From a gamma proteobacterium symbiont of Stewartia floridana (GTDB lineage: Bacteria > Pseudomonadota > Gammaproteobacteria > Chromatiales > Chromatiaceae): 64,000 nt of DNA. The stretch spans positions 248,001 through 312,000 of the forward strand of contig NAUB01000022.1 in NCBI GenBank assembly GCA_003676145.1, in the 5' to 3' direction. The translations under genes were made by a program, and so were the position numbers. This document shows positions 1,890 to 53,165 of this stretch, piece by piece (the stretch's first letter is position 1; each line of letters opens with the position of its first letter). A model generated the notes under the pieces. That model was given only the letters and a program-made list of their open reading frames with translations. It did no database searches and had not been told where the DNA came from.

Positions 1890-2564
1890 ATGTCCAATCA
1901 ACCTGCCGAAAGCCGAAATGACACCAGAACCCGCCTGCTGGAGGCCGCTTTGGAGGCCTTCGGCAGTCGGGATTATGACGGAGTCAGTACCCGGGAAATC
2001 GTCGAGATGGCCGGCGCCAACATCTCCGCCATCTCTTACCATTTTGAAAACAAACAGGGCCTCTACCACGCCACAGTAAGCTACCTTTCAGAAACACTCA
2101 AAGCGGGTATGGCAGAGCAGCTTGAGTCACTGGAAGCATGGATGAAGCAGGCCACCGCAGAGGATTGCGCCGAAAAAGTCTGTCAATTTCTAGAGCATTA
2201 TTTTGAACATATACTGCTCGGTGAGGTCGGTAAGCATTCACCGGGCATCATCTTCCGTGAACAGAACCGGCCAACCGAGGCGTTTCAGATTCTGTTCGAA
2301 AATCTGCTCGCTCCGATGCACAAAGCCCTGGCCCAACTGGTTGCCAGGTATCGCGGTCAATCTGCAACCGAGCCCCAGGTTCTGTATATGGTCCATACCC
2401 TGCTGGGTCAGACCATCATCTTCAGGATCGCTCAGACAACCCTGTTGAAGATTCTCGAACAAAAACAGTACAACCAGGCTGATATCAACGCGATCAAAGA
2501 GCAGCTCCGGTGCCAGTGCCGAGCCATACTCGACACACAGACAATCCCCATCCACAGCGAATAA
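1890..2564 (+). CDS. TetR-family transcriptional regulator (CecR/YbiH-like)
   Basis: A 224-residue repressor. The ATG at 1890 is preferred over an in-frame TTG at 1881, because a purine-rich AAGATGAG lies about 10 bases upstream. Residues 10-60 form the TetR helix-turn-helix (RTRLLEAALEAFGSRDYDGVS, then ISAISYHFENKQGLY), and the long C-terminal half resembles the DUF1956/CecR ligand domain. It ends 15 bases before an RND adaptor gene and is followed by the pump, so it is the likely local regulator of efflux. The perfect palindrome at 1818-1839 is its probable operator. The inducing ligand is unknown. Confidence 0.88.
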   Translation: MSNQPAESRNDTRTRLLEAALEAFGSRDYDGVSTREIVEMAGANISAISYHFENKQGLYHATVSYLSETLKAGMAEQLESLEAWMKQATAEDCAEKVCQFLEHYFEHILLGEVGKHSPGIIFREQNRPTEAFQILFENLLAPMHKALAQLVARYRGQSATEPQVLYMVHTLLGQTIIFRIAQTTLLKILEQKQYNQADINAIKEQLRCQCRAILDTQTIPIHSE

Positions 2565-2579
2565 CAGGCCTTGAACATC

Positions 2580-7033: not shown

Positions 7034-7161
7034 GCATCAGAGACAGATTGATCTGTTCGCAGATATCCCAACACCAGTTGTAGAGAGGATTCTGACAAGC
7101 GGTTCTGGCGCCATTTTCTGATCACTCACTACAATGACTTTTAACCAAACAGGTTAGCAGC

Positions 7162-8790: not shown

Positions 8791-9180
8791 GGCATACCAC
8801 CTCCAAGTAAAAATAACCATCTTTGACATGTAACTGTCTATGGCTCTCTAACGGCATGCCGGATCATATCTTAAGCATGCCATCTTGCTGTAATGATGGG
8901 AAAATTCGAAAAAGATGAGCCAATCATAGTGATTGCAGATCGATGCCCTGGGTATCATCAGATGAGACCGATGAATCAACAGGCAACGGCAGATGCCGGG
9001 ATAAGGGAACTGCCTGGCGGCCGCTGGATTGCAAAAAAGGCGTGGCAGAGTGATCGATGCCAGCTGGATTGAAATGGAGACGCCTGACGAGGGATGGAGT
9101 AGGTCCCCAGAACATCAAGTCAAGGCTGGCGGCAGACCCGGCGACGGCAAGCGAACGCTTGGTCGCCGGGCTATTCCCGA
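8791..9180. other. Intergenic interval with a strong hairpin
   Basis: About 390 bases between two minus-strand genes. It holds the chemoreceptor promoter, which must lie just right of 8805, and the hairpin at 9137-9170. A 64-codon open frame on the minus strand (8924-9118) has no ribosome site and no recognisable product. Confidence 0.45.
9137..9170 (-). terminator. Long hairpin downstream of the RCC1-repeat gene
   Basis: Outer arms CCCGGCGAC/GTCGCCGGG and inner arms CAAGCG/CGCTTG enclose an AA loop, with a two-base bulge. It begins 10 bases past the stop codon of the minus-strand gene. It lacks a T-run, so it may act as a 3' stabiliser rather than a true intrinsic terminator. Confidence 0.5.
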
Positions 9181-10602
9181 TCAGTAGGAAGTGATCTGTG
9201 TAAGATCCAACAGTGTGGTCGTATCAGAATCGGCGGAGTGGGTTAAAACCACATTCAGCAGACTATCCAGTCCCAGGGTCACATCCATGGCAACCAGACA
9301 GGAGATGTTCGCCTCACCATTGGTAAAGGTGGTCATGCAATTGCGCTGCTGCAACTGGGTAGAGGGTGTGAATTCAACGGCCGCATCCACAGCAAACCTC
9401 AAATTACCATCCGTTTGCAGACTCAGTTCAACATCAAAAAGTGTACTTCCACCCAGTGAGACACAAGGCAGGCGCAGGTTACCATTCATGAAATAGGTAG
9501 GCCTGCAGGCAGTCGGGATCTGGGACTCCAGCACCGGACCAACACTCAATGAAGCGCTGTCATCCTCATTCGGGATGGCTGAAACGGTGTTGACATTGTA
9601 GGTGACCACATCCCCATCCCTGTCCATCACCAAGCCACCCAGTCCTCTACCGGTTGAGACCTGTACCGCGTTGGTGAAGCCAGCAACCTGTTCAGGAACG
9701 GAGACGAAATCGGTGATACTGCTTTTCCAGCGACCCCAGGTCCAGACACTGCCATCGGAGAGAACCGCGGCACTTTGCCGATAACCGGCCGAGATGTCGT
9801 AGGCACCGCTCAAACCCTGCACCTGGGTCGCGGTATTACTGTTATCGAAGGTGCCATTGCCGAGCTGACCATAGGCATTTTTACCCCAGGCCCAGATGGT
9901 ACCGTCAGCCTTCAGGGCCAGTGCATGATCGTAACCACCGTCGATCTGCACGATATCGGTCAGACCAGCGATCTGGGTCAGTTCATCGACCAATACCGAG
10001 TAGCCCAGCGTCTCGTCATAGACACTCACCTGCTCCCAGGTCCATACAGTGCCGTCGTTTCTTAGTACGTAGGGGCTGTTGAGGGATACGGCAACCGACA
10101 CAGCATTGTAAACCCCCTTGATCTGCCTCGGCTCGTCATCGTTGAAGACGCTGTTCAGGGCATATTCCCAAAGCGAACCGTCAGCAGCCACTGCCGCCAT
10201 CGGCCAGGGGCCTGCTGCAACATCCACGATATTGCTGAATGCCCGAATCTGATATGGCTGGTAGCGTGTCATTCGACCGAGAACGTCACCCCAGACCCAG
10301 ACTGTGCCGTCAGACAGCGCAGCAGCTGTCCATGAGTAGAAGTCATCCATGGAAATGTCGACGATATCGGCGATATCCAATGCTTTGACAGGAATCGTAC
10401 TATCCTCACCGGTGCTGTTTCCCAGTTCGCCATTTTGGTTGTCACCCCAACCCCAGGCTGTACCGTCCGAGGCACGAACCACGAAACCCACTTCATTGCC
10501 ACCTTCCAGTAACGGCTTGGCCGCATGGGCCTGACTGAGAATGGATATCGACAGAATGGCCAGAATCCCGCTTGCCACATTTTTCCAAGAGAAGACTTTC
10601 AC
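9181..10602 (-). CDS. Secreted RCC1-repeat (beta-propeller) protein
   Basis: 473 residues. I start at a GTG at 10602 because AGAGG lies 6-7 bases upstream and a clean Sec signal follows (about 27 residues, ending AHA). The next 320 residues carry about six RCC1-type repeats of the pattern 'dGTvWaWG.N..GQLGnGt', for example ALKADGTIWAWGKNAYGQLG, which build a seven-bladed-type propeller. The last 110 residues hold four cysteines in a separate beta-rich domain. RCC1 folds are usually protein-binding; exported bacterial ones are often adhesion or host-contact proteins, but no such role is shown here. No partner gene adjoins it. Confidence 0.82.
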   Translation of the reverse strand: MKVFSWKNVASGILAILSISILSQAHAAKPLLEGGNEVGFVVRASDGTAWGWGDNQNGELGNSTGEDSTIPVKALDIADIVDISMDDFYSWTAAALSDGTVWVWGDVLGRMTRYQPYQIRAFSNIVDVAAGPWPMAAVAADGSLWEYALNSVFNDDEPRQIKGVYNAVSVAVSLNSPYVLRNDGTVWTWEQVSVYDETLGYSVLVDELTQIAGLTDIVQIDGGYDHALALKADGTIWAWGKNAYGQLGNGTFDNSNTATQVQGLSGAYDISAGYRQSAAVLSDGSVWTWGRWKSSITDFVSVPEQVAGFTNAVQVSTGRGLGGLVMDRDGDVVTYNVNTVSAIPNEDDSASLSVGPVLESQIPTACRPTYFMNGNLRLPCVSLGGSTLFDVELSLQTDGNLRFAVDAAVEFTPSTQLQQRNCMTTFTNGEANISCLVAMDVTLGLDSLLNVVLTHSADSDTTTLLDLTQITSY

Positions 10603-11176
10603 TGAATACCTCTGAGTTTGGCTAATCACAAAAAGACCGTATCTCAAACAACGACCTTCACAACTATCGGAAACTTAACATCGTTTATTGAGTTTTACAG
10701 TTCGATTACTTTGTCAGACTGTTAAGTCGGTCAAATTAAGGGCATGTAGGATAAGTCAGATTCATCAGCTTTGAAATCTCGTTACTTAAAATTCTAAATT
10801 TTGCCCTGAATCCGATAGAAAAACCCCCTAGCCCCTAGTGTCGATCCGCACTTCCCGAGGCCCGCCAGGCCGTGGCTTATCCGACTTTTTTACTCAGGTA
10901 TAAACTGTTTCCATGGGGTGCAAAATCCCAAATTTTCTTTCAATTTAAGCGCGATTCCTTTACCCTTGATCTGTTCTAGAAACCGGTTTTCTAGACAAAA
11001 AAGGTATAACAACAGCTTACGACGCAGTACGACCGCGCCTCCGCAAAACCAAAAAAACAATAAAGCGTGACAACTTAAGGGCGCCAGGAAACGACCTGCC
11101 CCCCCTTATCAGGCCCCAGGTGCTGCACATCGATCAAGATGTAGGTGTAGGCCGCAAAAAGTGGGTGAATGCAATA
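10603..11176. other. Divergent control region between the RCC1 gene and the DAB operon
   Basis: About 570 AT-rich bases without a supported gene. It contains the start regions of two divergent units and one near-palindrome at 10975-10995. No attachment site or RNA gene is seen. Confidence 0.5.
10975..10995. promoter_or_regulatory. Near-perfect palindrome upstream of sulP
   Basis: TCTAGAAACC followed by GGTTTTCTAGA, symmetric apart from one extra T in the right half. It lies about 180 bases before the likely sulP start, in the only promoter-sized gap ahead of the six-gene carbon-uptake operon. It is a candidate operator for that operon; no regulator gene is adjacent. Confidence 0.4.
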
Positions 11177-12943
11177 ATGTGGGATCATATTAGAAGTTTG
11201 ATGGCGGGCTGGAAAAACGCTTTTATCCCTTATCTGCAATGGATCGGCGAACTCAAAGACAAAAAGACGATTCGGGCCGATATCATCGCGGGTATCACTG
11301 TTGCCCTGGTGCTGGTCCCCCAATCCATGGCCTACGCACAGCTGGCCGGTCTGCCCGTCTACTACGGTCTCTACGCCTCATTCCTGCCACCGATGATCGC
11401 CGCTCTGTTCGGTTCGTCGAGGCAACTCGCCACCGGCCCGGTCGCCGTGGTCTCTCTGATGACCGCCGCCGCACTGGAACCCCTGGCCACTTCTCCGGAC
11501 ACCTATTTCGCCTATGCCATGTTGCTGGCCCTGATGGTCGGTGTCTTTCAGATGTTTCTCGGTCTGTTCAAACTCGGCGTGCTGGTGGACTTTCTCTCCC
11601 ACCCGGTGGTGGTCGGTTTTACCAATGCCGGTGCTCTGATCATCGCCACCTCACAACTGGGCAAGGTCTTTGGCGTCTTTGCGGAACGGGCTGAGCACCA
11701 CTATGAGACTGTCTGGAACACGCTGCTGGCTGCGGCCGAGAGCACCCATGCGCCAACCCTGCTGATGGCGCTGATCGCGTTTGGCATCATGTGGGGAGTC
11801 AAACGCTTCTATCCGGCGATGCCCGGGGTATTGATCGCTGTGGTGGTAACCACCGTACTGGCCTGGGCTACCGGTTTTGCCGATGCCGGCGGTAAAGTGG
11901 TGGGTACTATCCCGGACGGTCTGCCAAGCTTCTCCATACCGACCTTTGAGGTAACCACCATCTGGTCCCTGATTCCGGCGGCGATCACCATCTCCCTGAT
12001 CGGTTTTATGGAAGCGATCTCCATCGCCAAAGCGATGGCAGCCAGAACCCGCCAGCGCCTCAATGCCAATCAGGAGTTGATCGGACAGGGTCTGTCGAAT
12101 GTCTTCTCAGGCGTCTTTTCCGGCTACCCGGTATCGGGTTCCTTCTCCCGCTCTGCGGTCAACATCAATGCGGGCGCGATTACCGGATTCTCTTCCATCG
12201 TCACCGGTGTGGTGGTGATGATCACCCTGATCTTTTTGACCCCACTGCTCTACCATCTGCCCCAGGCAACCCTGGCTGCGGTAATCATCATGGCGGTCAT
12301 CAATCTGATCAAGATCGACCCGATCATCCATGCCTGGAAAGCCCAGCCCCACGATGCGGTGGTTTCGGTGGTCACCTTTGTGCTGACCCTGGCATTCGCG
12401 CCACATCTCGACAAAGGCATCATCGTCGGTGTACTGCTCTCTCTGGGGCTGTTCCTGTGGCGCACCATGCGTCCCCGTTTCGCTCAGCTCTCCCGCTACA
12501 AAGATGGCACCATGCGTGACATCCGGGTGCGTAAGCTGCCGACCAGCCCGCAGATCTCGGTGGTTCGTTTCGATGGCTCGCTCTACTTCGCCAGTGCCGG
12601 TTATTTCGAGACCAAGATGCTTGGCGTAGTCGCCGCCAATCCGGAACTGAAATACATCATTCTGGATGGTGAGGGGATCAATCAGATCGATGCGACCGGT
12701 GAAGAGGTTCTGCACCATCTCTGGGAGCGACTGCAGGCTCAGGGAATCACCCTGGTGGTCGCCCGCATGAAAAAGCAGTTCATGGATACCATCCGTCGCA
12801 CCGGCTTGAAAGACAAAATGGGTGAAGAGACCTTCTACTCCCGGATTGGTCTGGCGCTCAATTATGTCTGGGATGAGCTGGGCGACAGCTACGACCGGGA
12901 TAACTGCCCACTCAGGTCACCGCTCGCCAGCAATCGAGCTTGA
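11177..12943 (+). CDS. SulP-family anion transporter with STAS domain
   Basis: 588 residues from the ATG at 11177. A GTG at 11120 extends the frame by 19 residues with no support, and an ATG at 11201 is also possible. The family signature IAGITVALVLVPQSMAYAQLAGLP lies in TM1, followed by about 12-14 membrane helices and a cytoplasmic STAS domain over the last 130 residues (DGEGINQIDATGEE core). SulP proteins move sulfate, bicarbonate or other anions, often with sodium or protons; BicA of cyanobacteria is the bicarbonate form. Its place at the head of the DAB genes favours bicarbonate, but sulfate cannot be excluded from sequence. Confidence 0.88.
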   Translation: MWDHIRSLMAGWKNAFIPYLQWIGELKDKKTIRADIIAGITVALVLVPQSMAYAQLAGLPVYYGLYASFLPPMIAALFGSSRQLATGPVAVVSLMTAAALEPLATSPDTYFAYAMLLALMVGVFQMFLGLFKLGVLVDFLSHPVVVGFTNAGALIIATSQLGKVFGVFAERAEHHYETVWNTLLAAAESTHAPTLLMALIAFGIMWGVKRFYPAMPGVLIAVVVTTVLAWATGFADAGGKVVGTIPDGLPSFSIPTFEVTTIWSLIPAAITISLIGFMEAISIAKAMAARTRQRLNANQELIGQGLSNVFSGVFSGYPVSGSFSRSAVNINAGAITGFSSIVTGVVVMITLIFLTPLLYHLPQATLAAVIIMAVINLIKIDPIIHAWKAQPHDAVVSVVTFVLTLAFAPHLDKGIIVGVLLSLGLFLWRTMRPRFAQLSRYKDGTMRDIRVRKLPTSPQISVVRFDGSLYFASAGYFETKMLGVVAANPELKYIILDGEGINQIDATGEEVLHHLWERLQAQGITLVVARMKKQFMDTIRRTGLKDKMGEETFYSRIGLALNYVWDELGDSYDRDNCPLRSPLASNRA

Positions 12944-13006
12944 TTCCTATGAGCATCTTCTGCGAATGGCACCTATACCGAGTGTCATTTTCGCAGGCAG
13001 GTCTTC

Positions 13007-14467
13007 ATGCCTAGCCTGACCTACCTTATGCTGACACCCTTTGCCGGTGTCCTGGCGATACTTTTTCTGCCCAGGGGCAGGGTGCACCTGATCCGCTACA
13101 CGGCCCTGGTTTCCTCTGCAGCGACCCTGCTGCTTGCCTGGTCCTACCTGGGTTCGTTCGATCTGCACCAGCCCGGCTTGCAGTTTGTTCACCAAACCGA
13201 GTGGAACACCCGCCTCGGCACCACTTTTACCCTCGGACTGGACGGCTTCTCCTATCCGATGGTGCTGCTCGCCACCCTGTTAAGTGTCGTCGCCCTGCTC
13301 GCCTCCAGCGCCATTCGTCAGGGGGTCAAGGGCTACTACATGCTGGTGCTGCTGCTCGAGTCGGCCATGTTGGGTGTGTTCCTGGCCCAGGACTGGTCCC
13401 TATTCTATGTATTCTGGGAGTTGACTCTGATCCCCCTGTTCTTCCTGATCGACCGCTGGGGTGGCAGCAATCGTCATGGTGCAGCGCTCAATTTTGTACT
13501 CTATACAATGGGTGGATCGGTATTCATGCTGATCAGCATCCTTGTGCTGTTCGATTCTGTTCCAGGTCACAGCTTCGCCATGGATGTAATGACCGAGACA
13601 AGTCGATTGTTGCCGCAGCAGACCCAGATATTGATCTTTCTAGGCCTGCTGATCGGTTTTGGGGTGAAAATGCCGATCTTTCCACTCCATGGCTGGTTAC
13701 CCCTGGCTCACGTGGAGGCGCCCAGTCCGGTATCGATACTGCTCTCGGGGATACTGTTGAAGATGGGCTCCTATGGTCTGCTGCGGGCAGCCAGTATGCT
13801 GCCTGATGCTGTGATGGCGCTGCAGGAGGTACTTGCCATACTCGCCTTCATCAGTCTGATCTACGGTGGCTTGCTCGCCTGGCGGCATAGCGATCTGAAA
13901 GCGATGATCGCCTACTCCTCAATCAGCCACATGGGGGTGGTGCTGTTGGGCATTGCCGCCCTAAATCTGGCTGGCCTGCACGGTGCGCTGATGCAGATGG
14001 TGGCACACGGTCTGGTTGCCGGATCGCTGTTTCTGCTGATCGGTTTGCTCTATGAGAGAACCCACACCCGCAATGTCATGGATTACAGCTCCCTGGTTCG
14101 AGTAATGCCCAGATTTGCCTTCTTTACCACTCTGGCCTTTATCGCTGCAGTCTCCCTGCCGGGTACGGCTGGCTTCATCGCAGAACTGAATACCCTTATC
14201 GGTGGATTCTCCCGTTGGGGCTGGGCGGCCGCTCTTCTGACTCTAGGCGTACTGCTCAGTGCCGCCTATGCGGTCCGCACGATCAGCCAGCTGTTTACCG
14301 GCCCAGTCCGTCCCGGAATGCAAAACGTGGAGGATCTGCGGCCCTCGGAACTGGTCGCAGCCGCGACCCTGGCGATTTTTACTCTACTGCTTGGCTTCCT
14401 CCCGGGGCCGGTATTGAATCTGGTCAACGCCTCCGCACTGCAACTCTCTGAACTGTTCAGGATGTGA
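13007..14467 (+). CDS. NuoM/MrpD-like proton-translocating subunit, DAB operon copy 1
   Basis: 486 residues, about 14 membrane helices, with the antiporter-like fold of complex I subunit M. The two functional residues of the family are present: E138 in the FWELTLIPLFFL helix and K221 in VKMPIFPLHGWLP. AGGCAGGT precedes the ATG. It follows sulP by 63 bases and precedes dabA by 8 bases. None of the complex I core subunits is near, so this is not part of a nuo operon. In this setting it is inferred to be an ion-conducting partner of DabA/DabB rather than a respiratory subunit. Confidence 0.85.
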   Translation: MPSLTYLMLTPFAGVLAILFLPRGRVHLIRYTALVSSAATLLLAWSYLGSFDLHQPGLQFVHQTEWNTRLGTTFTLGLDGFSYPMVLLATLLSVVALLASSAIRQGVKGYYMLVLLLESAMLGVFLAQDWSLFYVFWELTLIPLFFLIDRWGGSNRHGAALNFVLYTMGGSVFMLISILVLFDSVPGHSFAMDVMTETSRLLPQQTQILIFLGLLIGFGVKMPIFPLHGWLPLAHVEAPSPVSILLSGILLKMGSYGLLRAASMLPDAVMALQEVLAILAFISLIYGGLLAWRHSDLKAMIAYSSISHMGVVLLGIAALNLAGLHGALMQMVAHGLVAGSLFLLIGLLYERTHTRNVMDYSSLVRVMPRFAFFTTLAFIAAVSLPGTAGFIAELNTLIGGFSRWGWAAALLTLGVLLSAAYAVRTISQLFTGPVRPGMQNVEDLRPSELVAAATLAIFTLLLGFLPGPVLNLVNASALQLSELFRM

Positions 14468-14475
14468 GGTAGGCT

Positions 14476-17400
14476 ATGCAACAAACCAAATCATCCAGCA
14501 AGGACATCCGAGAACAGATCAGAGCGGCAATTGACCATCTCGAACACACACTGCCCAGTCAGGCTCCAATCCGGGATTTCGTGCATCACAATACGCTGCA
14601 CGGCTATCAGCATCTCCCCTTTCCTGAGGCCCTGGCAACAGCCCGGCACTTGACCGGCGCCCGGGGTTATCTTCCTGCTGAGCGCTATCAGGCATTTCTC
14701 CGCCAGGGAAGGATCACCCGGGACGAACTTCGCCACGCAATTGATGAGGAAGCCGCGTTACAGCCTCAACTGCTGCTGGCGGAAACCGATCAATACCAAC
14801 TCAAGCGCAGCGATGTCTATCTGGCGGCGATGACCATGCCCACCACGATTGTCTCCAGCTGCCAGCTCAACTGGCAGATTGAGGAGAAAGCAGCGCTGCA
14901 AAAGCTCAATTCCGAACTACCCGTAACAGCCCGCAGACAGTTATTGGCGGATGCGGAAGCTGCGGGACTGGGCAGTGAGTCAGCAGCAGTTGAGCATCTC
15001 TGGCAAGCCTGCCTGTCGGTGCTCAACCTCTCCTACGACCCCACCCACCCGGAAGAGCTATTCGACCTGGCCCCCGAACTGGCTGAAACCTTGCTTCATG
15101 ATCTGTTGGATGGCAGTGATAACAAGACCAATACTCAAAGCAGCAGCCAGCTGATGGAACATTCAGCCCTTCAGCGACTGGATGAGATGATGGCGCAACT
15201 TGGCCAGGGCAAGACCATGCGCGACCTGCTGCTCTCCCTGACCGGTGAGGATCTGCTCGACAACATCAGACCGCAACTGATCCGGGTGCTGGGAAATTTT
15301 CTCGACCAGGGGGTATCGAGCTGGCAGGCGGATTTTAGTGAGGGTGGTTTCTACCACTTCTGGCGATCCCAGGCTGCTTCCGACCCGATCTGGCAGTTGT
15401 CCGGTATCGAAGGCTGGCAGCAGCACTTTGAGCTGATGGACAACGATCCCCTGGAGACCATCATCAGCGAACTGCAACGGATGGGACTGACACAGGAGCA
15501 CTGGACTGGCTATCTGGAACGGCTGGCACTCGAACTGCCTGGCTGGTCAGGTATGGTGCTATGGCGGCATAACAATCGGGACTATGAATCCCTCGCCGCA
15601 CCGGTGGAAATGCTCGACTACCTTGCAGTGCGCCTGGTACTGGAACGCATCCATGCCCACAATCTCTGTGCCCAGCACTTCAATATCGAGTCCAGTCTCG
15701 ACATGCTGCGCTGGTATTTCCGCCATCAGTATGATGAGTTCACCGTCAGGGAGGCGCTGTTCAACAGCCGGCTTCCGGAGTATCTGGCCAGTCGCGCTCA
15801 AAGGGCCATACACGCCCCTGAGCAGGGGGAAGCCCTGGCGAATGCCAAACGCTGGAACCACCTGGCACAGCTGATCTGGACCTGGCGTCTGAGCAGTGGG
15901 CAGTCACAAGGCCAGGATCGGCCAACCCTGTGTGACGGCGCCTGGCCCCTGTTCCAGCTTGCTCAGCACCTGGGCTGGTGCGGCAACCAGGTAAGCCAGC
16001 TCAGTTTCGATCAGATCGGTATGATTTTCACTGCTCTGGGTGAACTGGATGAGGATCGTCAGGGCTATATCTGGCTGAAAGCCTACGAGAAACACTATCG
16101 GGATAATATTCTCAAGGCCCTGGCGCAGAATCATGGTCGTGGAGCCTGGAACAACCGGGAGAGAGCGCCTGCCGCGCAACTGATCTTCTGCATGGATGAT
16201 CGTGAGGAGGGGATCCGGCGTCACCTGGAAGAGATCTACCCGGAAGTTGAGACCCTGGGCGCTGCTGCCCACTTCAATGTACCTCACAACTGGCAGGGGC
16301 TGGATGATACGACCGCTGCCCCACTGGCACCGGTCATCCCGGCACCGGTGATTCCGGTCCATCAGGTATGCGAACAACCGGCGGCGGGGCTGGCTGACCT
16401 GGGTGCGAAACACAGAAAACGTAATACGCTGCTCAATCAGGGCCACCAGCGACTTCTGCAGATGACCCGCCAGGGCATTGTGCTGCCGGGTCTGCTTTCA
16501 GCTTTGGCCGCACCACTGGCCCTACCGGTTCTGCTCGGTAAGATCCTGTCTCCCGGTCTGTTTGGCCACTTTCAGCAAAAGTTGAAATCCGGCTTTGAAA
16601 AGAGTCTGCAGACCCGTATCGATTTCACCGCGCCGAATGAGAGTCCGGAGGCAACGCTGCAGGCGCCACGTCTGGGATTTACCGATGTTGAACAGGCCGA
16701 CCGGGTGCAGACCCTGCTGAAGGCTACCGGTCTCACCAGTGGCTTCAGCCGCCTTGTGATGATCCTTGGACATGGCTCCAGAAACCAGAACAATCCTCAC
16801 ACCTCCGCCTACAACTGTGGTGCCTGCTCAGGTCGCTTCAGTGGTCCCAATGCCCGTCTGGTCGCGGCCATGGCCAACCGCAGCGAGGTGCGCAAACTGC
16901 TGAGTGAACGGGGCATCGAAATCCCAGAGGAGAGCTGGTTCATCGGCGCGGAACACGACACCTGCAGCGATCAGATCATCAGCTATGACCTGGACCTGAT
17001 ACCCAGCTCACTGAAAGCAGCCGCAGGCAAACTTGACCAGGCTCTGATACAGGCGGGTAAGCGGCACGCCCGGGAACGCTGCCGACGCTTCGCCTCCGCG
17101 CCACACAAACTGACCGAACAACAGGCAATGGAGCATGTCGCTGGCCGAGCCAACGACTTCTCCCAGGCCCGCCCGGAGCTGGGTCATGCCACGAATGCGT
17201 GCGCCTTCATCGGCCGGCGCAGTCTCAGCCGGGGAGCATTTTTCGACCGACGGGCTTTTCTGATCTCCTATGATGCCAGTACCGATCCGGAAGGAGAGGT
17301 TCTGGAGCGTCACTTATTGATCAACGGTGCCGTGGGCGCCGGTATCAGCCTCGAGTACTATTTCTCCACGGTGGACAATGAAAACTATGGCAGCGGCTCC

Positions 17401-17796
17401 AAGGTCACCCATAATGTGACCGGCTTTCTCGGCGTCATGGAGGGCGCCAGTTCAGACCTTCGTACCGGTCTGCCCCGTCAGATGGTCGAGATTCACGAGG
17501 CGATGCGGCTGCTCGTCGTGGTAGAAGCCAGTACAGAGATTCTGACCACCATCTACCAGCGCCAACCACCATTGCAGCAACTGGTTGGCAACGACTGGGT
17601 ACAGCTGGTGGCCATCGATCCGCATAGTGGAGAACTGAAGCTGTTCAATCCCCGCGAGGGATGGCTACCCTGGCAGCCGGCGGATGAGCGCCCCCTGACC
17701 AGAGTGGATAGATCGGATGGCTGGTATCTGGGCTCATCAGACGCACTGCCTACCGCGCTGATCAAAACGCCGCTGGAGGATACCACTGATGGTTGA
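14476..17796 (+). CDS. dabA: DabA: DUF2309 zinc-dependent CO2-hydrating subunit of the DAB carbon-uptake system
   Basis: 1106 residues, at the long end of the DUF2309/UPF0753 family. The proposed beta-carbonic-anhydrase-like zinc site is intact: C572 and D574 in FCMDDREEG, then H766 in GHGSR and C781 in YNCGAC. The 15-residue gap between the last two equals that of Halothiobacillus DabA. Characterised DabA works with the NuoL-like DabB at the membrane, converting CO2 to bicarbonate in a direction made irreversible by coupling to the ion gradient. Its stop overlaps the dabB start by 8 bases, which suggests tightly matched synthesis. No membrane helices are evident, so it should be cytoplasmic and peripheral. 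Confidence 0.93.
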   Translation: MQQTKSSSKDIREQIRAAIDHLEHTLPSQAPIRDFVHHNTLHGYQHLPFPEALATARHLTGARGYLPAERYQAFLRQGRITRDELRHAIDEEAALQPQLLLAETDQYQLKRSDVYLAAMTMPTTIVSSCQLNWQIEEKAALQKLNSELPVTARRQLLADAEAAGLGSESAAVEHLWQACLSVLNLSYDPTHPEELFDLAPELAETLLHDLLDGSDNKTNTQSSSQLMEHSALQRLDEMMAQLGQGKTMRDLLLSLTGEDLLDNIRPQLIRVLGNFLDQGVSSWQADFSEGGFYHFWRSQAASDPIWQLSGIEGWQQHFELMDNDPLETIISELQRMGLTQEHWTGYLERLALELPGWSGMVLWRHNNRDYESLAAPVEMLDYLAVRLVLERIHAHNLCAQHFNIESSLDMLRWYFRHQYDEFTVREALFNSRLPEYLASRAQRAIHAPEQGEALANAKRWNHLAQLIWTWRLSSGQSQGQDRPTLCDGAWPLFQLAQHLGWCGNQVSQLSFDQIGMIFTALGELDEDRQGYIWLKAYEKHYRDNILKALAQNHGRGAWNNRERAPAAQLIFCMDDREEGIRRHLEEIYPEVETLGAAAHFNVPHNWQGLDDTTAAPLAPVIPAPVIPVHQVCEQPAAGLADLGAKHRKRNTLLNQGHQRLLQMTRQGIVLPGLLSALAAPLALPVLLGKILSPGLFGHFQQKLKSGFEKSLQTRIDFTAPNESPEATLQAPRLGFTDVEQADRVQTLLKATGLTSGFSRLVMILGHGSRNQNNPHTSAYNCGACSGRFSGPNARLVAAMANRSEVRKLLSERGIEIPEESWFIGAEHDTCSDQIISYDLDLIPSSLKAAAGKLDQALIQAGKRHARERCRRFASAPHKLTEQQAMEHVAGRANDFSQARPELGHATNACAFIGRRSLSRGAFFDRRAFLISYDASTDPEGEVLERHLLINGAVGAGISLEYYFSTVDNENYGSGSKVTHNVTGFLGVMEGASSDLRTGLPRQMVEIHEAMRLLVVVEASTEILTTIYQRQPPLQQLVGNDWVQLVAIDPHSGELKLFNPREGWLPWQPADERPLTRVDRSDGWYLGSSDALPTALIKTPLEDTTDG

Positions 17797-19342
17797 ACAG
17801 AGTGTATGGATGGTCCCATTCGTCTATTGGCTGGCAGCCGCCTTCATTGCACTTGGCTACATCCTCAACGTCAATCGAGGGGAAGCGGGTGAACAGCTGA
17901 CCGCCCATATCGCACTATCGGCCGCTGCCATTGCCTTTCTGATGAGTCTGGTTCTGGCCATCATGGGTTTCTGGCAGGGTCCTCCAGGACAGGTCACCCT
18001 GGGAGAGTGGTTCAGCAGCGGTGCGATCGGTCTGTGGATCAGTTTCAGTCTGGATAGCATCGGTCTGTCGCTGCTGCCGGTGATCACATTGATCGCCTTG
18101 CTGACCCTCAGATTCTCAGTCAACTACCTGCATCGGGAAGCAGGATTTCAGCGCGCCTTTTTACTGCTCAGCCTCTTTTCCGGAGCCATGTCGCTGATCG
18201 TCATCGCCGGTAATGCGGTGTTGGCTTTTGTCGGCTGGGAAATTGCCGGTGTCAGCTCCTATTTGTTGATCGGTTATGCGATCGAGCGAACCACAGCCAC
18301 CCGAAATGCGGTACGGGTATTCGTTACCAACCGTATTGGCGATGCCGGGTTCATTCTCGGTATTGCCCTCTCACTCTACTGGCTGGGTAGTGTGGAGTGG
18401 CCGGAGATCGCCCGTCACGGCAGTGATCTGGACACCCTCGCTGCCGGTGTGGTGATTATGGGATTTGTCATCGCAGCATTGGCCAAATCAGCTCAGATCC
18501 CTTTCTCCCCATGGATCTCCCGAGCCTTGGAAGGACCGACACCCACCTCGGCTATCTTCTACGGATCATTGATGGTGCATGCGGGCGTAATCCTGATGAT
18601 TCGCCTCGCTCCATTGCTGCAGCAGGCACCGGCGATCATGGTGATCATCGCCCTGCTGGGACTATTGACCGTGGCCTACGGTTGGCTCTCCGGGCTGAGT
18701 CAGACAGACATCAAAAGTTCATTGATGTTCGCCACCACCACCCAGGTGGGTTGGATGTTTTTCTGGTGTGGTATGGGCTGGTTCACTCTGGCGGCCTGGC
18801 ACCTGGCGCTCCATGCCATCTGGCGGGCTTTCCAGTTTCTCGCCTCCCCTGGCCTGGTCAACCAGATTGACAAGCCCACTCCTGCAGTACCTGTGTGGCT
18901 ATCCCGCCAACGCTGGCTGCATCGCGCTTCGCTGCAACGTTTCTGGCTCGATCCGCTGGCCGATGTGCTGCTGGTCAGACCGACCAGCTCCCTGGCCAAG
19001 GATGTACAGTATTTCGACGAGCAGGTGGTGACCCGCCTGGTCGGCCTGCCGATCTACTCCCGCAGTGTATCCTCGCTGAGCCAGTGGGAAGCGATGCAAC
19101 AGGAGAAACCGGGAGGCCAGGCGGATGTCAATCAGGCCACAGGGGTGGCCGGTCGACTGATGGCCTGGCTGGCCAACCTGCTCTACTGGTTCGAGTCCCA
19201 CCTGGTATTGCGGGAGGGCGGAGCCAGTCTGTGGGATTCGATGCGACGTATCGGCACACTGGTGGAGCGGGTTGAACAGTTACTGACTGAGCCCCGCTAT
19301 CTGATTCTGCTGATCATGGCCACCTTCGCGGTGATTCTCTAG
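17789..19342 (+). CDS. dabB: DabB: NuoL-like membrane partner of DabA
   Basis: 517 residues and about 14 helices, resembling the first part of complex I subunit L but without the long lateral helix. The family's key Glu (E151, VGWEIAGVSSYLLIGY) and Lys (K233, ALAKSAQIPFSPWI) are both present, as is the GDAGF motif. It starts 8 bases inside dabA. In the studied DAB systems this subunit supplies ion flux that drives DabA. The last 130 residues are more divergent, mostly soluble, and end in one helix. Confidence 0.9.
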   Translation: MVEQSVWMVPFVYWLAAAFIALGYILNVNRGEAGEQLTAHIALSAAAIAFLMSLVLAIMGFWQGPPGQVTLGEWFSSGAIGLWISFSLDSIGLSLLPVITLIALLTLRFSVNYLHREAGFQRAFLLLSLFSGAMSLIVIAGNAVLAFVGWEIAGVSSYLLIGYAIERTTATRNAVRVFVTNRIGDAGFILGIALSLYWLGSVEWPEIARHGSDLDTLAAGVVIMGFVIAALAKSAQIPFSPWISRALEGPTPTSAIFYGSLMVHAGVILMIRLAPLLQQAPAIMVIIALLGLLTVAYGWLSGLSQTDIKSSLMFATTTQVGWMFFWCGMGWFTLAAWHLALHAIWRAFQFLASPGLVNQIDKPTPAVPVWLSRQRWLHRASLQRFWLDPLADVLLVRPTSSLAKDVQYFDEQVVTRLVGLPIYSRSVSSLSQWEAMQQEKPGGQADVNQATGVAGRLMAWLANLLYWFESHLVLREGGASLWDSMRRIGTLVERVEQLLTEPRYLILLIMATFAVIL

Positions 19343-19350
19343 GGGGCCTT

Positions 19351-20865
19351 ATGATCATAGAAACCATCCACTGGTCGACGCAGATCGGCTACCCCATACT
19401 CTCACTGCTGCAACTGCTGCCGCTGCTCTCTCTGTTTGCCATCTGGCTGCTGAAGCGCCACCCCCTGCTGCTGCCGGCCGCTGTCACGGCCGCTTCGATT
19501 GAACTGCTGCTGGGGATCGATCTTTGGCTCCACTACGACAGCAGTGTCACCAGTATGCAGTTCAGTGAAACCGCACAGCTCTTCTCTGTGCTCAATTACC
19601 AGGCAGCGGTAGATGGTCTCTCGGTGGTATTTATCCTGCTGACCGGTCTGTTGACTCTGTTGTTGATACTCTATGCTAAGGTTCGCGAGCTCAAACCTTA
19701 CAACCACCTCTATATGGCCACTTTCGCGGTACAGGCCTGCCTGATGGGTATGTTCGTTACCCTCAACCTGCTGCTGTTTGTCCTGATCTCGGCAATTCAG
19801 ATCGGCATCGTGGGTTACATGCTGTGGCGCTGGGGCAACTCCCCGGACAAAGGCATGGCGATGCGACGTTTCTATCAGTTCATGACCATCAGCATTCTTT
19901 TGCTGTTGACCGGCACCCTGCTGCTAGGCTGGAACTACGCTGACAGTCACCAGGGGGTTTGGGCTTTCGATCTGATTCAACTGTCCAAGGCGCCAGTCTC
20001 CGAGACTTTCCGTTCGGTGGCCTTCTTTCTGCTGTTCTACGGTCTGGCCATCCGTACCCCACTGTTCCCGTTGCATGGTTGGTTACCGCTGGTTGCCGAG
20101 CATGGTAATGTGGCTGTCGCCCCTACCCTGCTACTCGGTTTGAAGATTGGCATCTATGGTCTGTTTCGATTCGTATTGCCACTACTGCCTACCGCCGTGA
20201 TCGAATGGCACAACTATGTGGTCGCCTTCGCCCTGTGCGGCATATTCTACGCCGCCTTCCTCGCCATGATGCAGGATAACCTGAGGCGTCTACTGGCCTA
20301 TGCGGTGATTTCTCATACCGGAATCCTGATACTCGGGGTCTTCAGCCTGGAGCACGCCGCCTTCATGGGCAGTGTGATCCTATCGCTTACCTTCGGACTC
20401 GCTCTGGCCGCCCTGGTTTTCACCACAGGCCTGCTCTATCGTCGCACCCATACCACCCTGCTGCCCAACTTGGGGGGATTGTTCGACAATCTGCCGTTTC
20501 TCGGCATCACCTTTCTGGTTGGTGGGCTGGCAATCATCGGTATGCCCGGCACACCGGGATTCGATGCGGTACATCTGATTCTGGAATCGGCAATCCACAA
20601 ATTCGGCGCCCTGGTGACAATCGCTTCCGCCCTGGGAAATGTGGCAGCCGCCGGCTTTCTGCTATGGGCCTTCCAGCGGGCATTTCTGGCCCCCAGACCC
20701 AATGGTGCGCAACCCTTTCAGATCATTGCCATCACCAAAGCGGAAGTGTTTGTGGTCAGCGCCCTGGTGGCCGTGCTGTTGAGTGCCGGCTTCTATATCG
20801 AACCCTGGCTGAAACTGATCGATCAACCCCTGTCGGCACTCAGTGCCCTCTACACATCCCATTGA
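19351..20865 (+). CDS. NuoM/N-like membrane protein lacking the key Glu and Lys, DAB operon copy 2
   Basis: 504 residues with about 14 helices and a clear antiporter-like fold (TPLFPLHGWLPLV). It departs from its two sister subunits at both charged positions: the helix-5 Glu is replaced (A148 aligns with E138 of the first copy), and the helix-7 Lys is an Arg (R235 in AIRTPLFP). The later LAYAVISHTGILILG and YRRTHT segments are kept. It lies 8 bases after dabB. It probably cannot pump as a normal NuoM would, and may be a structural or regulatory member of the complex (inference). Confidence 0.82.
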   Translation: MIIETIHWSTQIGYPILSLLQLLPLLSLFAIWLLKRHPLLLPAAVTAASIELLLGIDLWLHYDSSVTSMQFSETAQLFSVLNYQAAVDGLSVVFILLTGLLTLLLILYAKVRELKPYNHLYMATFAVQACLMGMFVTLNLLLFVLISAIQIGIVGYMLWRWGNSPDKGMAMRRFYQFMTISILLLLTGTLLLGWNYADSHQGVWAFDLIQLSKAPVSETFRSVAFFLLFYGLAIRTPLFPLHGWLPLVAEHGNVAVAPTLLLGLKIGIYGLFRFVLPLLPTAVIEWHNYVVAFALCGIFYAAFLAMMQDNLRRLLAYAVISHTGILILGVFSLEHAAFMGSVILSLTFGLALAALVFTTGLLYRRTHTTLLPNLGGLFDNLPFLGITFLVGGLAIIGMPGTPGFDAVHLILESAIHKFGALVTIASALGNVAAAGFLLWAFQRAFLAPRPNGAQPFQIIAITKAEVFVVSALVAVLLSAGFYIEPWLKLIDQPLSALSALYTSH

Positions 20866-20878
20866 GAAGCGAATCACC

Positions 20879-22381
20879 ATGGGCCGAATCGAAACACTCA
20901 CCAACCTGCCGCTGCTCTCAACTCTGCTGTTGTTGCCACTGCTCGGCATCGCCATGATCTGGCTGATCCCCCAGGTCAGAGCCAGGATGATCAGCCTGCT
21001 CACACTCGGCCTGGCCCTGATCCCGGCCCTCTCTGCACTGCTTCTGCTGGATAGTGCCAGCAGTGATTTCCAGATGCTGGAGACCTACCCCTGGATACCG
21101 GCGCTGGATGCCCATTTCAGATTCGGCATCGATGGCTTTTCAGCCCCCTTTCTGCCGCTGACGGTGTTGCTGTTTATCGCCGTGACCCTGGCTTCCTGGA
21201 AGCGCATCCAGAACATGCCGCGTATCTACTACAGTCTGCTGCTGATGTTCGCCACCGCCACTCTGGGTGTCTTTATCACGATCGATACCCTGGCCTTTTT
21301 CCTGTTTTGGGAACTCACCCTAGCGCCGCTCTATTTTCTCATCAGCCTATGGGGGATCGGACCACACCGGCGCTACGCCGCCACCAAGTACACCCTGTTC
21401 ATGCTGGCCGGCGGTATCCCCCTGTTGCTGGCTTTCACGGTACTCGCGATCAACCATGCTGAGATCATCGGTGCGACACCCCCGGCCGGGCTATCATTCG
21501 ACTATCTGACCCTGCTCGACACCCGCCTCCCCCCAGGCATGGAGACCATCGTCTTTGCTTTCCTGCTGATCGGTTTTGCCATCAAGACCCCACTCTTCCC
21601 ACTCCACACCTGGCTGCCGATCGTAGCCCTGGAGGGGCCGGTACCGATTGCCGCACTGCTGGTCGGTTTGAAACTCGGTGCCTACGGACTGATCCGTTTC
21701 GCCATCCCCCTGGCACCCAATGCAGCCCAGGAGTTGCACTGGTTGCTGGCCGGGCTTGGCGTGGTGGGGATACTGTATGGCGCTCTGGCTGCACTCAACC
21801 AGACCAATCTGCGGCGTATGCTCGCCTACGCTTCGATGAGCCATGTCGGTCTGGTGGTGTTGGGTGTTGCCGCCTTCAACCAGCAAGGGCTGCAGGGTGC
21901 GATGTTTCAGCTCTATAACTTTGTTCTGATTGCCGGCGGACTGTTTCTGCTCACCGGTTATCTGCACCACCGCCTGGGCTCTACCGATCTGATTCATCTC
22001 GGCGGTGCGGCCCAATCCATGCCACTGCTGGCCGCCTTCTTTATGTTTCTCGGTCTCGCCTCACTGGGAATACCCGGCACCAGTGGATTCCCTGCTGAGT
22101 TTCTGATCCTCATCAGCGCCCTGACCACCCATACGGGTGCAGGGTTGGCGGCCCTGTTCGGCATCATCATCGGAGCCGGCTATCTGCTCAACAGCTATCG
22201 ACAGAGTTTTTACGGACCGATTACCGACAATCAGGTTCGTATTGCTCAGGATCTGAAACCCAGAGAGCTGCTCACCATGCTGGTGTTTTCCCTGCTGGTG
22301 CTGATGTTCGGTCTGTTTCCTGGACAGGTACTGGATTTGACTCAGGCAACCGCAGTTGCATGGTTATCAAGGATGCAGTGA
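20879..22381 (+). CDS. NuoM-like proton-translocating subunit, DAB operon copy 3
   Basis: 500 residues. An in-frame GTG at 20843 would overlap the previous gene, but the ATG at 20879 has GAGAAG 9 bases upstream and is preferred. E145 (FWELTLAPLYFL) and K236 (IKTPLFPLHTWLP) are both present, so this copy should be competent for ion movement. The LAYASMSHVGLVVLG helix is also conserved. It is the last gene of the operon, and a perfect 23-bp-arm hairpin follows after 114 bases. Confidence 0.85.
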   Translation: MGRIETLTNLPLLSTLLLLPLLGIAMIWLIPQVRARMISLLTLGLALIPALSALLLLDSASSDFQMLETYPWIPALDAHFRFGIDGFSAPFLPLTVLLFIAVTLASWKRIQNMPRIYYSLLLMFATATLGVFITIDTLAFFLFWELTLAPLYFLISLWGIGPHRRYAATKYTLFMLAGGIPLLLAFTVLAINHAEIIGATPPAGLSFDYLTLLDTRLPPGMETIVFAFLLIGFAIKTPLFPLHTWLPIVALEGPVPIAALLVGLKLGAYGLIRFAIPLAPNAAQELHWLLAGLGVVGILYGALAALNQTNLRRMLAYASMSHVGLVVLGVAAFNQQGLQGAMFQLYNFVLIAGGLFLLTGYLHHRLGSTDLIHLGGAAQSMPLLAAFFMFLGLASLGIPGTSGFPAEFLILISALTTHTGAGLAALFGIIIGAGYLLNSYRQSFYGPITDNQVRIAQDLKPRELLTMLVFSLLVLMFGLFPGQVLDLTQATAVAWLSRMQ

Positions 22382-23305: not shown

Positions 23306-24370
23306 TCAGTGCTCTTTATTCATCACCTCAAGTGCCCGTGACTGCCAATTCAACACAGCGGATTTCACATGCATCTTCTCAGCCAGCTGCGGATTGCTCT
23401 GGCGAATCTCATTGGCAGCGAAATCACACAAAAAATTCGATTTCATCTTTGCCCTGGCCTGATCCACACCCACATCCTGAAACGGCACCGAGGCAAACAG
23501 CAGAAAACCATCATCCGGTATCCGGCCTGCCTTCATGTTGCTCTCAATGATACCGGCGGCTTTATGAATTGGATCGGCCAGGCTGGGACTGTATGGACCG
23601 ATGATCAGCGCAATATTCGGCATATGCAGAAAGTCGAAACCACGACCGATGCAGATCATCCACTCCCGATGCTCGATATTCAGTTCGCGGTCGACCTGCC
23701 TGGCCGCTTCGATATGTTCGAGATTGCCAGCAATCAGCGGCAGTAGATCCTCGCACATCTGCTTAGACATATCCGGAAACAGGGCTTCCAGCCGCGGTCT
23801 CAGGGTATCCCTTTCGAATGGCTTGATATCGGCCATGTTCAGCAGCTCCCCGTTGCTGCCATGCAGAATCAGGGCGTCCTCGTCGGTCTCGAAACCGCAG
23901 ACGATGGGATAGACGGTCTGGTGTCCTCCACCAAATACCGCTTCTACCTGACGTTTGATCTCGAAGGTATGGGCCTTCGCCGCCTCCGTATCGTAGTTGA
24001 ATCCGGCACACCCCCTACTTGGATCACCTTTGGAAAAGTGGTAGGTGATCAGAATCATGGTGTGGCGACCTTCGGAGATTATGTTCTGCACATAGCTGGC
24101 CAGTACTTCACCCAGATGGGGCCAGCCCAGATCGAACATGCCGCCCAGATTGCGGAAAGGCTGAATGATGCCTTTCGGGGTGTTGGTGGCAATCGGGATA
24201 TTGATTCGCCCATCCATACACTTCAGTACCGCAATCGCCGTCGGGTGCTCTGCCAGATAACGGGTACGAGCCAACCAGTTTTCCGGATTGGTGTAGTTAC
24301 AGGAGTGGTTGTGGGCGTGGTTGAACAACCAGTCAATACGTTCTTCAATCGGTTTATTATGGATATCCAT
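23306..24370 (-). CDS. Carboxysomal/beta-type carbonic anhydrase-like zinc protein (CsoSCA-like)
   Basis: 354 residues from the ATG at 24370, which has AGGAAGG just upstream; a GTG two codons earlier is less likely. It holds the zinc and catalytic dyad motif C51-x-D53-x-R55 (KCMDGRINIP), then FRNLGG, then H111 and C121 (TYHFSKGDPSRGC). A Cys...His-x9-Cys arrangement with a long His-Cys gap is the pattern of the CsoSCA branch rather than the His-x2-Cys of ordinary beta-carbonic anhydrases. The rest resembles only the catalytic and C-terminal domains of CsoSCA. No carboxysome genes are near. Next to the DAB operon, a role in CO2/bicarbonate interconversion is likely, but activity is not assured. 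Confidence 0.72.
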   Translation of the reverse strand: MDIHNKPIEERIDWLFNHAHNHSCNYTNPENWLARTRYLAEHPTAIAVLKCMDGRINIPIATNTPKGIIQPFRNLGGMFDLGWPHLGEVLASYVQNIISEGRHTMILITYHFSKGDPSRGCAGFNYDTEAAKAHTFEIKRQVEAVFGGGHQTVYPIVCGFETDEDALILHGSNGELLNMADIKPFERDTLRPRLEALFPDMSKQMCEDLLPLIAGNLEHIEAARQVDRELNIEHREWMICIGRGFDFLHMPNIALIIGPYSPSLADPIHKAAGIIESNMKAGRIPDDGFLLFASVPFQDVGVDQARAKMKSNFLCDFAANEIRQSNPQLAEKMHVKSAVLNWQSRALEVMNKEH

Positions 24371-24773
24371 GGTCACCTTCCTGCCGGAATTTTATTATTA
24401 GCCGGCGGCCCTACAGATCACTTTACAGTGATTTTCAGCACGCCTTTGGTATAGGCTTGGCTCGCCGAATCAATAGAACGTTGCACCAACTGCACCAGAG
24501 AGTCAAATATCTCTCTGCAGAAAACTATTAAGGGATTAAATACTCAACAACAGACAACGGCCGAATGACCTCCTGCTCTTCAAAAACAGAGCGAAATATC
24601 ACCCGGGTGATCAGAGAGTTGAGGCATTGATTAGCAGTCCGTATAGTGAGCCGAAGAGAGTTTCTCAACGACTTTCAGCCAGATTTCCACATTTTCCCGA
24701 TCGAAACACTCTGCCATTGGGATGCTAATCCGTGAGAAGATGGCAGCTTCTTATTGAGCAACGAGATATCGAC
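24371..24773. other. Divergent intergenic region
   Basis: About 400 bases separating the carbonic anhydrase-like gene (leftward) and the bolA-like gene (rightward), so it holds both promoters. A small AGAGA/TCTCT hairpin lies near 24500. I see no gene or larger repeat. Confidence 0.45.
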
Positions 24774-53157: not shown

Positions 53158-53165
53158 ACCCACGG

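Follow-up and report, generated by a model that had tools for sequence, protein, structure and literature searches.

What kind of machine is encoded when a dabA and a dabB gene lie among three further antiporter-like genes and a SulP carrier? The question is raised by a tight operon in a stretch of 64,000 nucleotides (the window) from a relative of Candidatus Thiodiazotropha, in which SulP, M1, DabA, DabB, M2 and M3 follow one another on the plus strand (11177-22381) with spacings of 63, 8, -8, 8 and 13 bases, all six genes being present as the earlier note had said. The SulP-family anion carrier with its STAS domain (11177-12943, the frame being open from a GTG at 11120) matches PF00916 with 375 bits and PF01740 with 62 bits and lies above the cut-off of TIGR00815; with the NCBIfam equivalog model for BicA it reaches 148 of 880 bits, far below the cut-off. 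M1 (13007-14467), M2 (19351-20865) and M3 (20879-22381, starting with an ATG at 20879) are NuoM-like subunits that match PF00361 with 226, 120 and 200 bits, respectively, and all exceed the cut-off of the NCBIfam NuoM model, TIGR01972. DabA, the β-carbonic-anhydrase-like cytoplasmic subunit (14476-17796; 1106 aa), scores 775 bits with PF10070 against a cut-off of 25, and DabB (17789-19342; 517 aa) is a truncated NuoL-like subunit (PF00361, 126 bits; PF00662, 33 bits) whose best NCBIfam model is that for NuoL, TIGR01974, yet below the cut-off. Scans for promoter patterns (4 against 7.0 expected) and terminator patterns (14 against 9.7 expected, sd 2.9) gave no clear signal.

Five of the six genes form a constant core. 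The order M1-DabA-DabB-M2-M3 is identical in all 49 loci long enough to show their flanks, and is therefore more than chance; the median gaps across five-gene loci are 1, -8, 9 and 2 bases. Among 398 genomes drawn from the phylum, orthologues of the five-type DabA and of M2 occur in the same 36, the window's own genome included, and the remaining 32 DabA-bearing genomes have no M2. The five-gene records come from lucinid clam symbionts, Thiotrichaceae, Magnetococcales, Rhodocyclaceae and methanotrophs. M1, M2, M3 and the five-type DabB each form a clade of their own (support 100, 100, 99 and 99), as does the five-type DabA (100), and the M1 clade groups with complex-I NuoM (95). In the window's own genome, which contains 15 PF00361 genes, NuoL, NuoM and NuoN of complex I lie on another contig. 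The separate clades and the co-occurrence with this type of DabA rule out that M1-M3 are merely stray complex-I genes.

What happens, then, when the operon breaks? Reading the sequences reveals that the parts are dispersed without being lost. In G330, M1-DabA stay together, DabB is found 36 kb away and M2-M3 are on another contig; in G074, DabA is separate from an M1-DabB-M2-M3 cluster; and in G068 and G199, DabB and M2 are fused into a protein of 1045 aa that accompanies DabA, M1 and M3 being encoded at other sites. DabB and M2 form a single protein in L130 and L259, and two sister genomes of one lineage show this fusion. G070 (78% complete) encodes a related DabA and a related DabB beside a single antiporter-like protein that is very divergent, and no clear M1 or M3 was found among its PF00361 genes. 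The earlier note had grouped the additional antiporter-like genes with DabA and DabB, and had suggested gene order and co-conservation across genomes as a check. With 49 of 49 loci and 36 of 36 genomes in agreement, clades distinct from complex I, retention in broken operons and the DabB-M2 fusion, this idea stands; co-conservation with complex I only, one of the findings that the note had named as speaking against it, is not what the genomes display.

The same does not hold for SulP as a constant member of a six-gene unit. In 50 loci with at least 6 kb of upstream sequence, a SulP gene is a direct same-strand neighbour of the block in 20, lies 1.5-2.5 kb away in two, is divergent in four and is not seen in 24, which excludes it as a fixed subunit and leaves the core of five genes from the unit first proposed. 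Where present, this optional neighbour perhaps brings in bicarbonate. A convergent gene downstream (23306-24376, minus strand) encodes a CsoSCA-like protein, possibly a stand-alone carbonic anhydrase, whose best PDB matches are CsoSCA chains, though weak ones (E 0.0007), and which scores 35.5 bits with TIGR02701 (cut-off 241). It is an occasional companion, not a core part: relatives occur in 18 of 88 five-gene loci, G000 and G350 alone among 59 genomes have a full-length version, and none was found in the nearest relatives, L032 and L033.

To compare the subunits with those of known pumps, we counted residues over non-redundant sequences, clustered at 99.5% and 80% identity because some loci of the two collections represent one genome (for example L105/G233 and L037/G350). 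Numbering follows DabA2 (from alignment to 9rd0_A), DabB2 and, for M1-M3, E. coli NuoM. L057 and L130 were counted as five-type, L153 (a divergent five-type relative) and L167 (DabA in an Mrp-like operon) were excluded from the residue counts, and all four stand outside the two-gene residue and transmembrane (TM) counts. The DabAs of L057, L071, L092 and L100, where contigs end, were assigned to the five-type from sequence similarity, with little or no flank to go by, and that of L158 is two-gene on the same kind of basis. L002-L031, which overlap later regions or were not needed, were excluded, and L001, the window's own DabA, was counted. Typing by scores was borne out by reading the sequence in G233, G330, G074, G068 and G199. 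Signature counts are not independent events, since the signatures are inherited within one clade.

The catalytic core of DabA is untouched: the zinc ligands and Asp-Arg dyad (C351, D353, R355, H524 and C539) are each present in 90 of 90 five-type sequences. Around it, the two families part. Position 356 is Glu in all 90 five-type DabAs and Ser in all 45 two-gene ones, and position 658, occupied by Gln or His in canonical β-carbonic anhydrases, is His in 90 of 90 against Leu in 45 of 45. In DAB2 of Halothiobacillus neapolitanus (DabA2-DabB2; PDB 9rd0), whose structure appeared in 2026, protons are believed to pass via DabB and the DabA finger with its Glu444, and both E444A and E444Q abolish function (PMC13144422). 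At this finger position, which lies within a variable hairpin, the least certain part of the alignment, Glu is found in 45 of 45 two-gene DabAs and in 0 of 90 five-type ones (0 of 96 rows). The acid is not always lost, since six of the 90 have Asp (Methylobacter L108, L110 and L111, as well as G136, G068 and G051), and some acid occurs within 12 columns in 11 of 89 five-type fingers. The window's DabA has Glu356, His658 and Ala at 444. His658 need not mean more activity, because DabA2 remained functional in cells when Leu658 was replaced by Gln, Asn, Ala or Gly, and L658Q had no free carbonic anhydrase activity (PMC13144422); we did not adopt it as proof of such activity.

DabB has changed as well. 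H260A and K347A impair DAB2 (PMC13144422); position 260 is Tyr in 75 of 75 five-type DabBs and His in 43 of 43 two-gene ones, position 347 is Arg (75/75) instead of Lys (43/43), and Glu occupies position 151 in 74 of 75 against 0 of 43. Past position 347, five-type DabBs have one TM-like segment (73 of 78) or two (5 of 78), whereas two-gene DabBs have four (38 of 43), three (3 of 43) or eleven (2 of 43), leaving the five-type protein short of about three TM segments. The window's DabB has E151, Y260, R347 and a single TM-like segment past 347. Part of the channel is retained, as K310, H343 and S256 are kept in 75 of 75 sequences, H339 in 65 and S316 in 45.

Are the missing elements supplied by M1, M2 and M3? 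The residues E144, K234, K265 and E407, which we take to serve pumping in complex-I NuoM, are conserved in eight of eight complex-I NuoM rows. M1 has all of them, together with H322 and H348, in each of 77 non-redundant sequences. M3 keeps E144, K234, K265 and H322 in 65 of 65 and E407 in 64 of 65, with one gap, and has lost H348. M2 is rewired: Glu144 is found in 0 of 74 and Glu407 in 0 of 69 sequences, position 234 is Arg in 69 of 69, and a new D405-H408-E412 motif sits at the NuoM E407 site, with its acid, His and acid in 69, 69 and 68 of 69. Since the NuoM pump residues are kept only in M1 and M3, the three are not equal pumps, and the earlier notion of several pumping subunits needs changing accordingly.

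Based on these patterns, we propose with moderate confidence that M1-DabA-DabB-M2-M3 works as one unit: a relative of DAB, coupled differently, that would be a vectorial carbonic anhydrase of five subunits with ions passing via M1 and M3. DabA would hydrate CO2 at the zinc site on the cytoplasmic face. DabB lacks TM segments of the second half-channel, has Tyr for His260 and Arg for Lys347, and meets a finger without Glu, which points to an ion path most likely through M1 and M3. The truncated DabB and the rewired M2 would be the link that passes ion movement to DabA. At least two protons (or Na+) entering per turnover, presumably driven by the proton motive force, would push CO2 to bicarbonate against the gradient, in cells without carboxysomes. 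The use of different ions, or of more energy per CO2, as raised by the earlier note, may be a further feature. Judged from the sequences, a proton path that the small DAB builds from two parts may have passed to the three additional ion-channel-like subunits.

Alternatively, there could be two machines, with DabA-DabB a complete pump and M1-M2-M3 a separate, co-expressed antiporter that, for example, resets ion gradients. M1-M3 belong to the NuoM family, M1 and M3 or M2-M3 can stand elsewhere (G068, G199, G330), and DabB keeps S256, K310 and H343, all of which would fit. However, L130 and L259 encode DabB and M2 as one protein, and co-occurrence is 36 of 36. DabA-DabB alone also looks incomplete, because TM segments are missing from DabB, channel residues that DAB2 needs are changed and DabA is without Glu444. 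We therefore think two machines improbable.

The genomic context bears on the direction of the reaction. Carboxysome shell genes are found in 0 of 18 five-type genomes, as opposed to 26 of 26 genomes with long two-gene DABs, and RuBisCO is present in 14 of the 18; in the other four (G068, G199, G051 and G070) it was not found. Protons entering via M1 and M3 could drive bicarbonate dehydration at DabA, with SulP supplying bicarbonate and the CO2 going to cytosolic RuBisCO, a way of concentrating CO2 without carboxysomes. In line with this are the SulP gene that borders the block at 20 of 50 loci and the canonical β-carbonic-anhydrase His, which is joined at the zinc site by an additional Glu. 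Yet the characterised DAB2 takes up CO2 (PMC13144422). CO2 produced in the cytosol would be lost by leakage, no SulP is seen near the block in about half of the loci, and RuBisCO was not found in the four genomes named, so we give the reverse direction little credence.

The energy of CO2 hydration is too small to pump several ions. This, together with the invariant zinc ligands and Asp-Arg dyad of the β-carbonic-anhydrase-like site, makes it highly improbable that DabA runs an energy-yielding reaction while the array pumps ions out, as a 2017 paper suggested for all members of the family from gene neighbourhoods (PMC5700660), even if the presence of full sets of pump residues in two subunits would suit it.

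Returning to the single five-subunit carbonic anhydrase, a more specific form can be imagined, a CO2-concentrating device for bacteria without carboxysomes, in which two NuoM-type channels feed the zinc site with outside protons for either dehydration of SulP-imported bicarbonate towards cytosolic RuBisCO or multi-proton hydration of CO2, DabB is a non-conducting connector and M2 carries a new intramembrane Asp-His-Glu site. In this detail the scheme is unlikely, though either way its coupling would be unlike that of DAB2. The DAB2 proton path is no rule for all DabA proteins, since a widespread five-gene sister family lacks residues of that path. With this family, nature provides a way to probe how a carbonic anhydrase is driven by ion flow and what DABs do in autotrophs without carboxysomes, and clear single-gene and single-residue predictions follow.

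Finally, we would place the five-gene system beside those already known. In a DAB2-type locus, a single NuoL-like DabB lies next to DabA without other antiporter-like genes, and the window's operon is not of this kind. Both systems share the PF10070 cytoplasmic subunit, the zinc ligands, the Asp-Arg dyad and a NuoL-like partner; they differ in subunit number (two versus five), in S356, E444 and L658 of DabA2, replaced by Glu, no Glu and His, and in I151, H260 and K347 of DabB2, replaced by Glu, Tyr and Arg. The long two- or three-gene DABs also have a long DabA (about 1040 aa) and a NuoL-like DabB, but in the opposite order, with DabB first and usually an ORF of 247-292 aa between the two; they keep E444, S356 and L658, and none of M1-M3 was found in the regions read. 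DAB1, to which they may correspond, has been described as a three-gene system (PMC13144422). The membrane arm of complex I and NDH-1 has NuoL- and NuoM-type subunits in common with the five-gene system, and the window's operon has none of the redox subunits; complex-I NuoL contains a segment (about 358-528) that the five-type DabB lacks. In cyanobacterial NDH-1MS, several NuoL/M-type subunits serve CO2 hydration with a different carbonic anhydrase subunit. That complex is driven by ferredoxin oxidation (PMC13144422), whereas the five-gene operon has no redox parts. Mrp antiporters likewise unite several PF00361 subunits in one operon; their small subunits B, C, E, F and G are absent from the window's operon, whose gaps of only -8 to 63 bases leave no room for them, and at L167 a DabA lies inside a full Mrp-like operon. 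Our literature search, in the sources as far as available, found no description of the residue or TM differences of the five-gene DAB. The enlarged arrangement, taken as unreported by the earlier note, is partly in print already: the accessible part of the 2017 COGNAT paper, which predates knowledge of DAB function, places DabA/YbcC upstream of NuoL with SulP and NuoM, and its 'clade C' with COG0659 and COG1008 (PMC5700660). That part contains no NuoM count and no residue, TM, co-occurrence or carboxysome analysis, but gene order, SulP and NuoM neighbours match, so that 'clade C' very likely comprises the same operons. The paper also raised the possibility that a larger number of membrane genes goes with more ions.

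SulP, M1, DabA, DabB, M2 and M3 (M1 to M3 being our working names for the three NuoM-like genes around DabA-DabB) follow one another in this order on the + strand at 11177-22381, with intergenic gaps of 63, 8, -8, 8 and 13 bases, as an earlier note on this DNA had described. The window is part of contig C13 of a 4.55 Mb genome. This genome has a single DabA; its PF00361 genes number 15, and NuoL, NuoM and NuoN are encoded on a different contig. A CsoSCA-like protein is encoded on the minus strand (23306-24376) in this genome without carboxysome shell genes; of 88 five-gene loci, 18 have a relative of it close to the block, Rhodocyclaceae and Sulfuricellaceae among them. The window also holds a 541 aa SagB-type nitroreductase-family protein with two nitroreductase stretches (25110-26735, +), grouped genes for isocitrate lyase, malate synthase and AceK, a glyoxylate shunt (34929-39948) in a symbiont genome that has RuBisCO, and a pyruvate:ferredoxin oxidoreductase ORF that is very long (1645 aa), with Rnf genes downstream of it (48220-57900, +).

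All six genes had been taken for one unit, a view that stands for five of them. Named genomes were scanned for DabA and the best 80 of 297 loci kept, with record titles from Thiodiazotropha, Thiobacillus, Sulfuricellaceae, Rhodocyclaceae and Thiotrichaceae to Venteria, Leucothrix, Methylobacter and Magnetococcales; among these, the nearest named record for our DabA is Candidatus Thiodiazotropha sp. 'RUGA' (98% identical). Within this set, the order M1-DabA-DabB-M2-M3 was found in 49/49 loci with at least 1.8 kb upstream and at least 6 kb downstream of DabA (score thresholds of 400 bits for DabA and 300 for the other four proteins). SulP, assessed in the 50 loci of this set with at least 6 kb upstream, is the block's immediate same-strand neighbour in 20, 11 of them Thiodiazotropha or clam-symbiont records; it lies at 1.5-2.5 kb in two and is divergent in four, and none was seen in 24. 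The unit is thus M1-DabA-DabB-M2-M3. Two loci depart in detail: in Thiothrix sp. STA_22 (L089, 9941-23111) the DabA-DabB pair occurs twice in tandem between M1 and M2-M3, and in Methylobacter tundripaludum SV96 (L110, 13554-16087) DabB appears as two ORFs about 0.9 kb apart, the gene looking interrupted in the record.

The earlier note had also proposed a test of co-conservation, and M2 is indeed inherited together with this DabA type. A single sample of 398 genomes from the phylum, own genome included, has M2 orthologues (at least 276 bits; top match in a genome outside the set, 179) in 36 and the five-gene DabA type (at least 494 bits, next 438; split genes scored by the larger piece) in 36, and the sets are identical; M2 is absent from the other 32 DabA-bearing genomes (Fisher p ~1e-32, uncorrected for kinship). 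DabA and M2 lie on separate contigs in G508 and G512. The parts stay in genomes where the operon is broken. One genome (G074) has DabA on one contig and M1-DabB-M2-M3 consecutively on another; and in G330, M1-DabA are adjacent, DabB lies 36 kb off and M2-M3 are on another contig. In two sister genomes, G068 and G199, DabA is followed by a single 1045 aa ORF, the first half DabB and the second half M2 (L130 11342-14476 and L259 2356-5490, both minus strand), with M1 and M3 located elsewhere; each half of the G068 fusion is 43% identical to its window counterpart. This natural fusion points to direct contact between DabB and M2. A divergent locus (L153, 2750-8624, minus strand, genome G070) has DabA and DabB related to the five-gene type and, next to them, a single antiporter-like gene that has diverged strongly (PF00361, 48 bits); neither M1 nor M3 could be clearly recognised in this genome, which is 78% complete.

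In a quick tree of antiporter subunits (144 rows), M1, M2, M3 and five-gene DabB form clades with support of 100, 100, 99 and 99. M1 joins complex-I NuoM (95), M2 and M3 are sisters (93), as are five-gene and two-gene DabB (86). A quick DabA tree (57 rows) supports the five-gene family at 100, with the divergent L153 inside.

Residues were compared in clusters at 99.5% identity, with the divergent relatives L153 and L167 set aside and in DabA2, DabB2 and NuoM numbering; at 80%, invariant positions remained invariant. Zinc ligands and dyad are invariant in both DabA types (90 five-gene, 45 two-gene), whereas position 356 is Glu in 90/90 versus Ser in 45/45 and position 658 His in 90/90 versus Leu in 45/45. 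This His is the canonical beta-CA residue; L658 variants of DabA2 indicate that the position is not decisive in DAB2 (PMC13144422). Glu444 is found in 0/90 five-gene DabAs (0/96 rows unclustered; Asp in 6) and in 45/45 two-gene ones. DabB (75 versus 43) carries Glu (74) or Lys (1) at 151, with no Glu in two-gene DabB, Tyr (75/75) instead of His (43/43) at 260 and Arg (75/75) instead of Lys (43/43) at 347; S256, K310 and H343 are retained in 75/75, H339 in 65/75 and S316 in 45/75. Five-gene DabB is also shortened: HHalign aligns it to NuoL 3-357, with only a low-probability second alignment of residues 375-406 to NuoL 529-560. By a simple hydropathy rule rather than a topology program, TM-like segments after 347 number one in 73/78 and two in 5/78 five-gene DabBs; of the 43 two-gene DabBs, 38 have four, 3 have three and 2, both long ORFs, have eleven, and NuoL has six. 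M1 has E144, K234, K265, H322, H348 and E407, each in 77/77. M3 (n=65) has the same set except H348 (Phe 63, Leu 2), with one gap at E407. M2 lacks Glu144 (0/74 rows); it has Arg234 (69/69) and Lys265 (69/69), no Glu407 (0/69), and new residues at 405 (Asp/Glu, 69/69), 408 (His, 69/69) and 412 (Asp/Glu, 68/69), none of which occurs in 8 complex-I NuoM rows, E. coli included.

The host genomes differ as well. DabA occurs in 83/369 genomes of the class, of which 59 were screened for RuBisCO and the carboxysome carbonic anhydrase CsoSCA, and 44 for BMC shell proteins. The 18 five-gene genomes, including the divergent G070 and two (G051, G319) typed on contigs ending inside DabB, have RuBisCO in 14, a methane/ammonia monooxygenase gene in one (G136), and CsoSCA and BMC shell proteins in 0/18 each. 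The 26 long two-gene genomes have CsoSCA in 24 and RuBisCO and BMC shell proteins in 26 each (kinship uncorrected); the remaining 15 carry short DABs, with CsoSCA in 3.

The arrangement is not new, and neither is the idea of more ions: COGNAT reported in 2017 that ybcC (DabA) upstream of a nuoL homologue often has COG0659 (SulP) and COG1008 (NuoM) nearby, and raised the possibility that how many ions are moved is linked to how many membrane genes are present (PMC5700660). In the literature searched, we found no description of the residue and TM signatures or the carboxysome split. The DAB2 structure paper deals with a two-gene system and describes DAB1 as having three genes; the portion consulted yielded no mention of operons with NuoM genes (PMC13144422).

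A second enlarged form recalls Mrp antiporters. At L167 (G025:C1:74330-93074, 544-12451, minus strand), an eleven-gene operon places DabA inside a complete Mrp-like gene set: SulP-DabA, then MNHE/MrpE, MrpF, MnhG/MrpG, MbhD/E-like, MnhB, NuoK/MrpC-like and three PF00361 genes. This DabA is sister to that of the five-gene family (89, 57-row tree), and relatives at E 1e-150 or better, a threshold admitting close relatives only, occur in 1/339 genomes.

The five-gene family is described here by sequence and gene order; that its products form a complex is inferred, as are the ion, its path and direction, and the stoichiometry. The proposed proton route of DAB2 leads through DabB and the finger of DabA; activity was lost in the E444A and E444Q variants and reduced in H260A and K347A (PMC13144422). 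The five-gene family lacks E444, H260, K347 and part of the helices, and M1 and M3 carry full pump residue sets, which leads us to place the ion path in these two NuoM-type subunits: ions would cross the membrane through M1 and M3, with DabB and M2 acting as connectors. Unlike DabB2, five-gene DabB has Glu151, the counterpart of NuoL Glu144, which belongs to an ion pair close to where membrane subunits meet (PMC13144422). The five-gene family is a real, widespread and rewired five-subunit relative of DAB.
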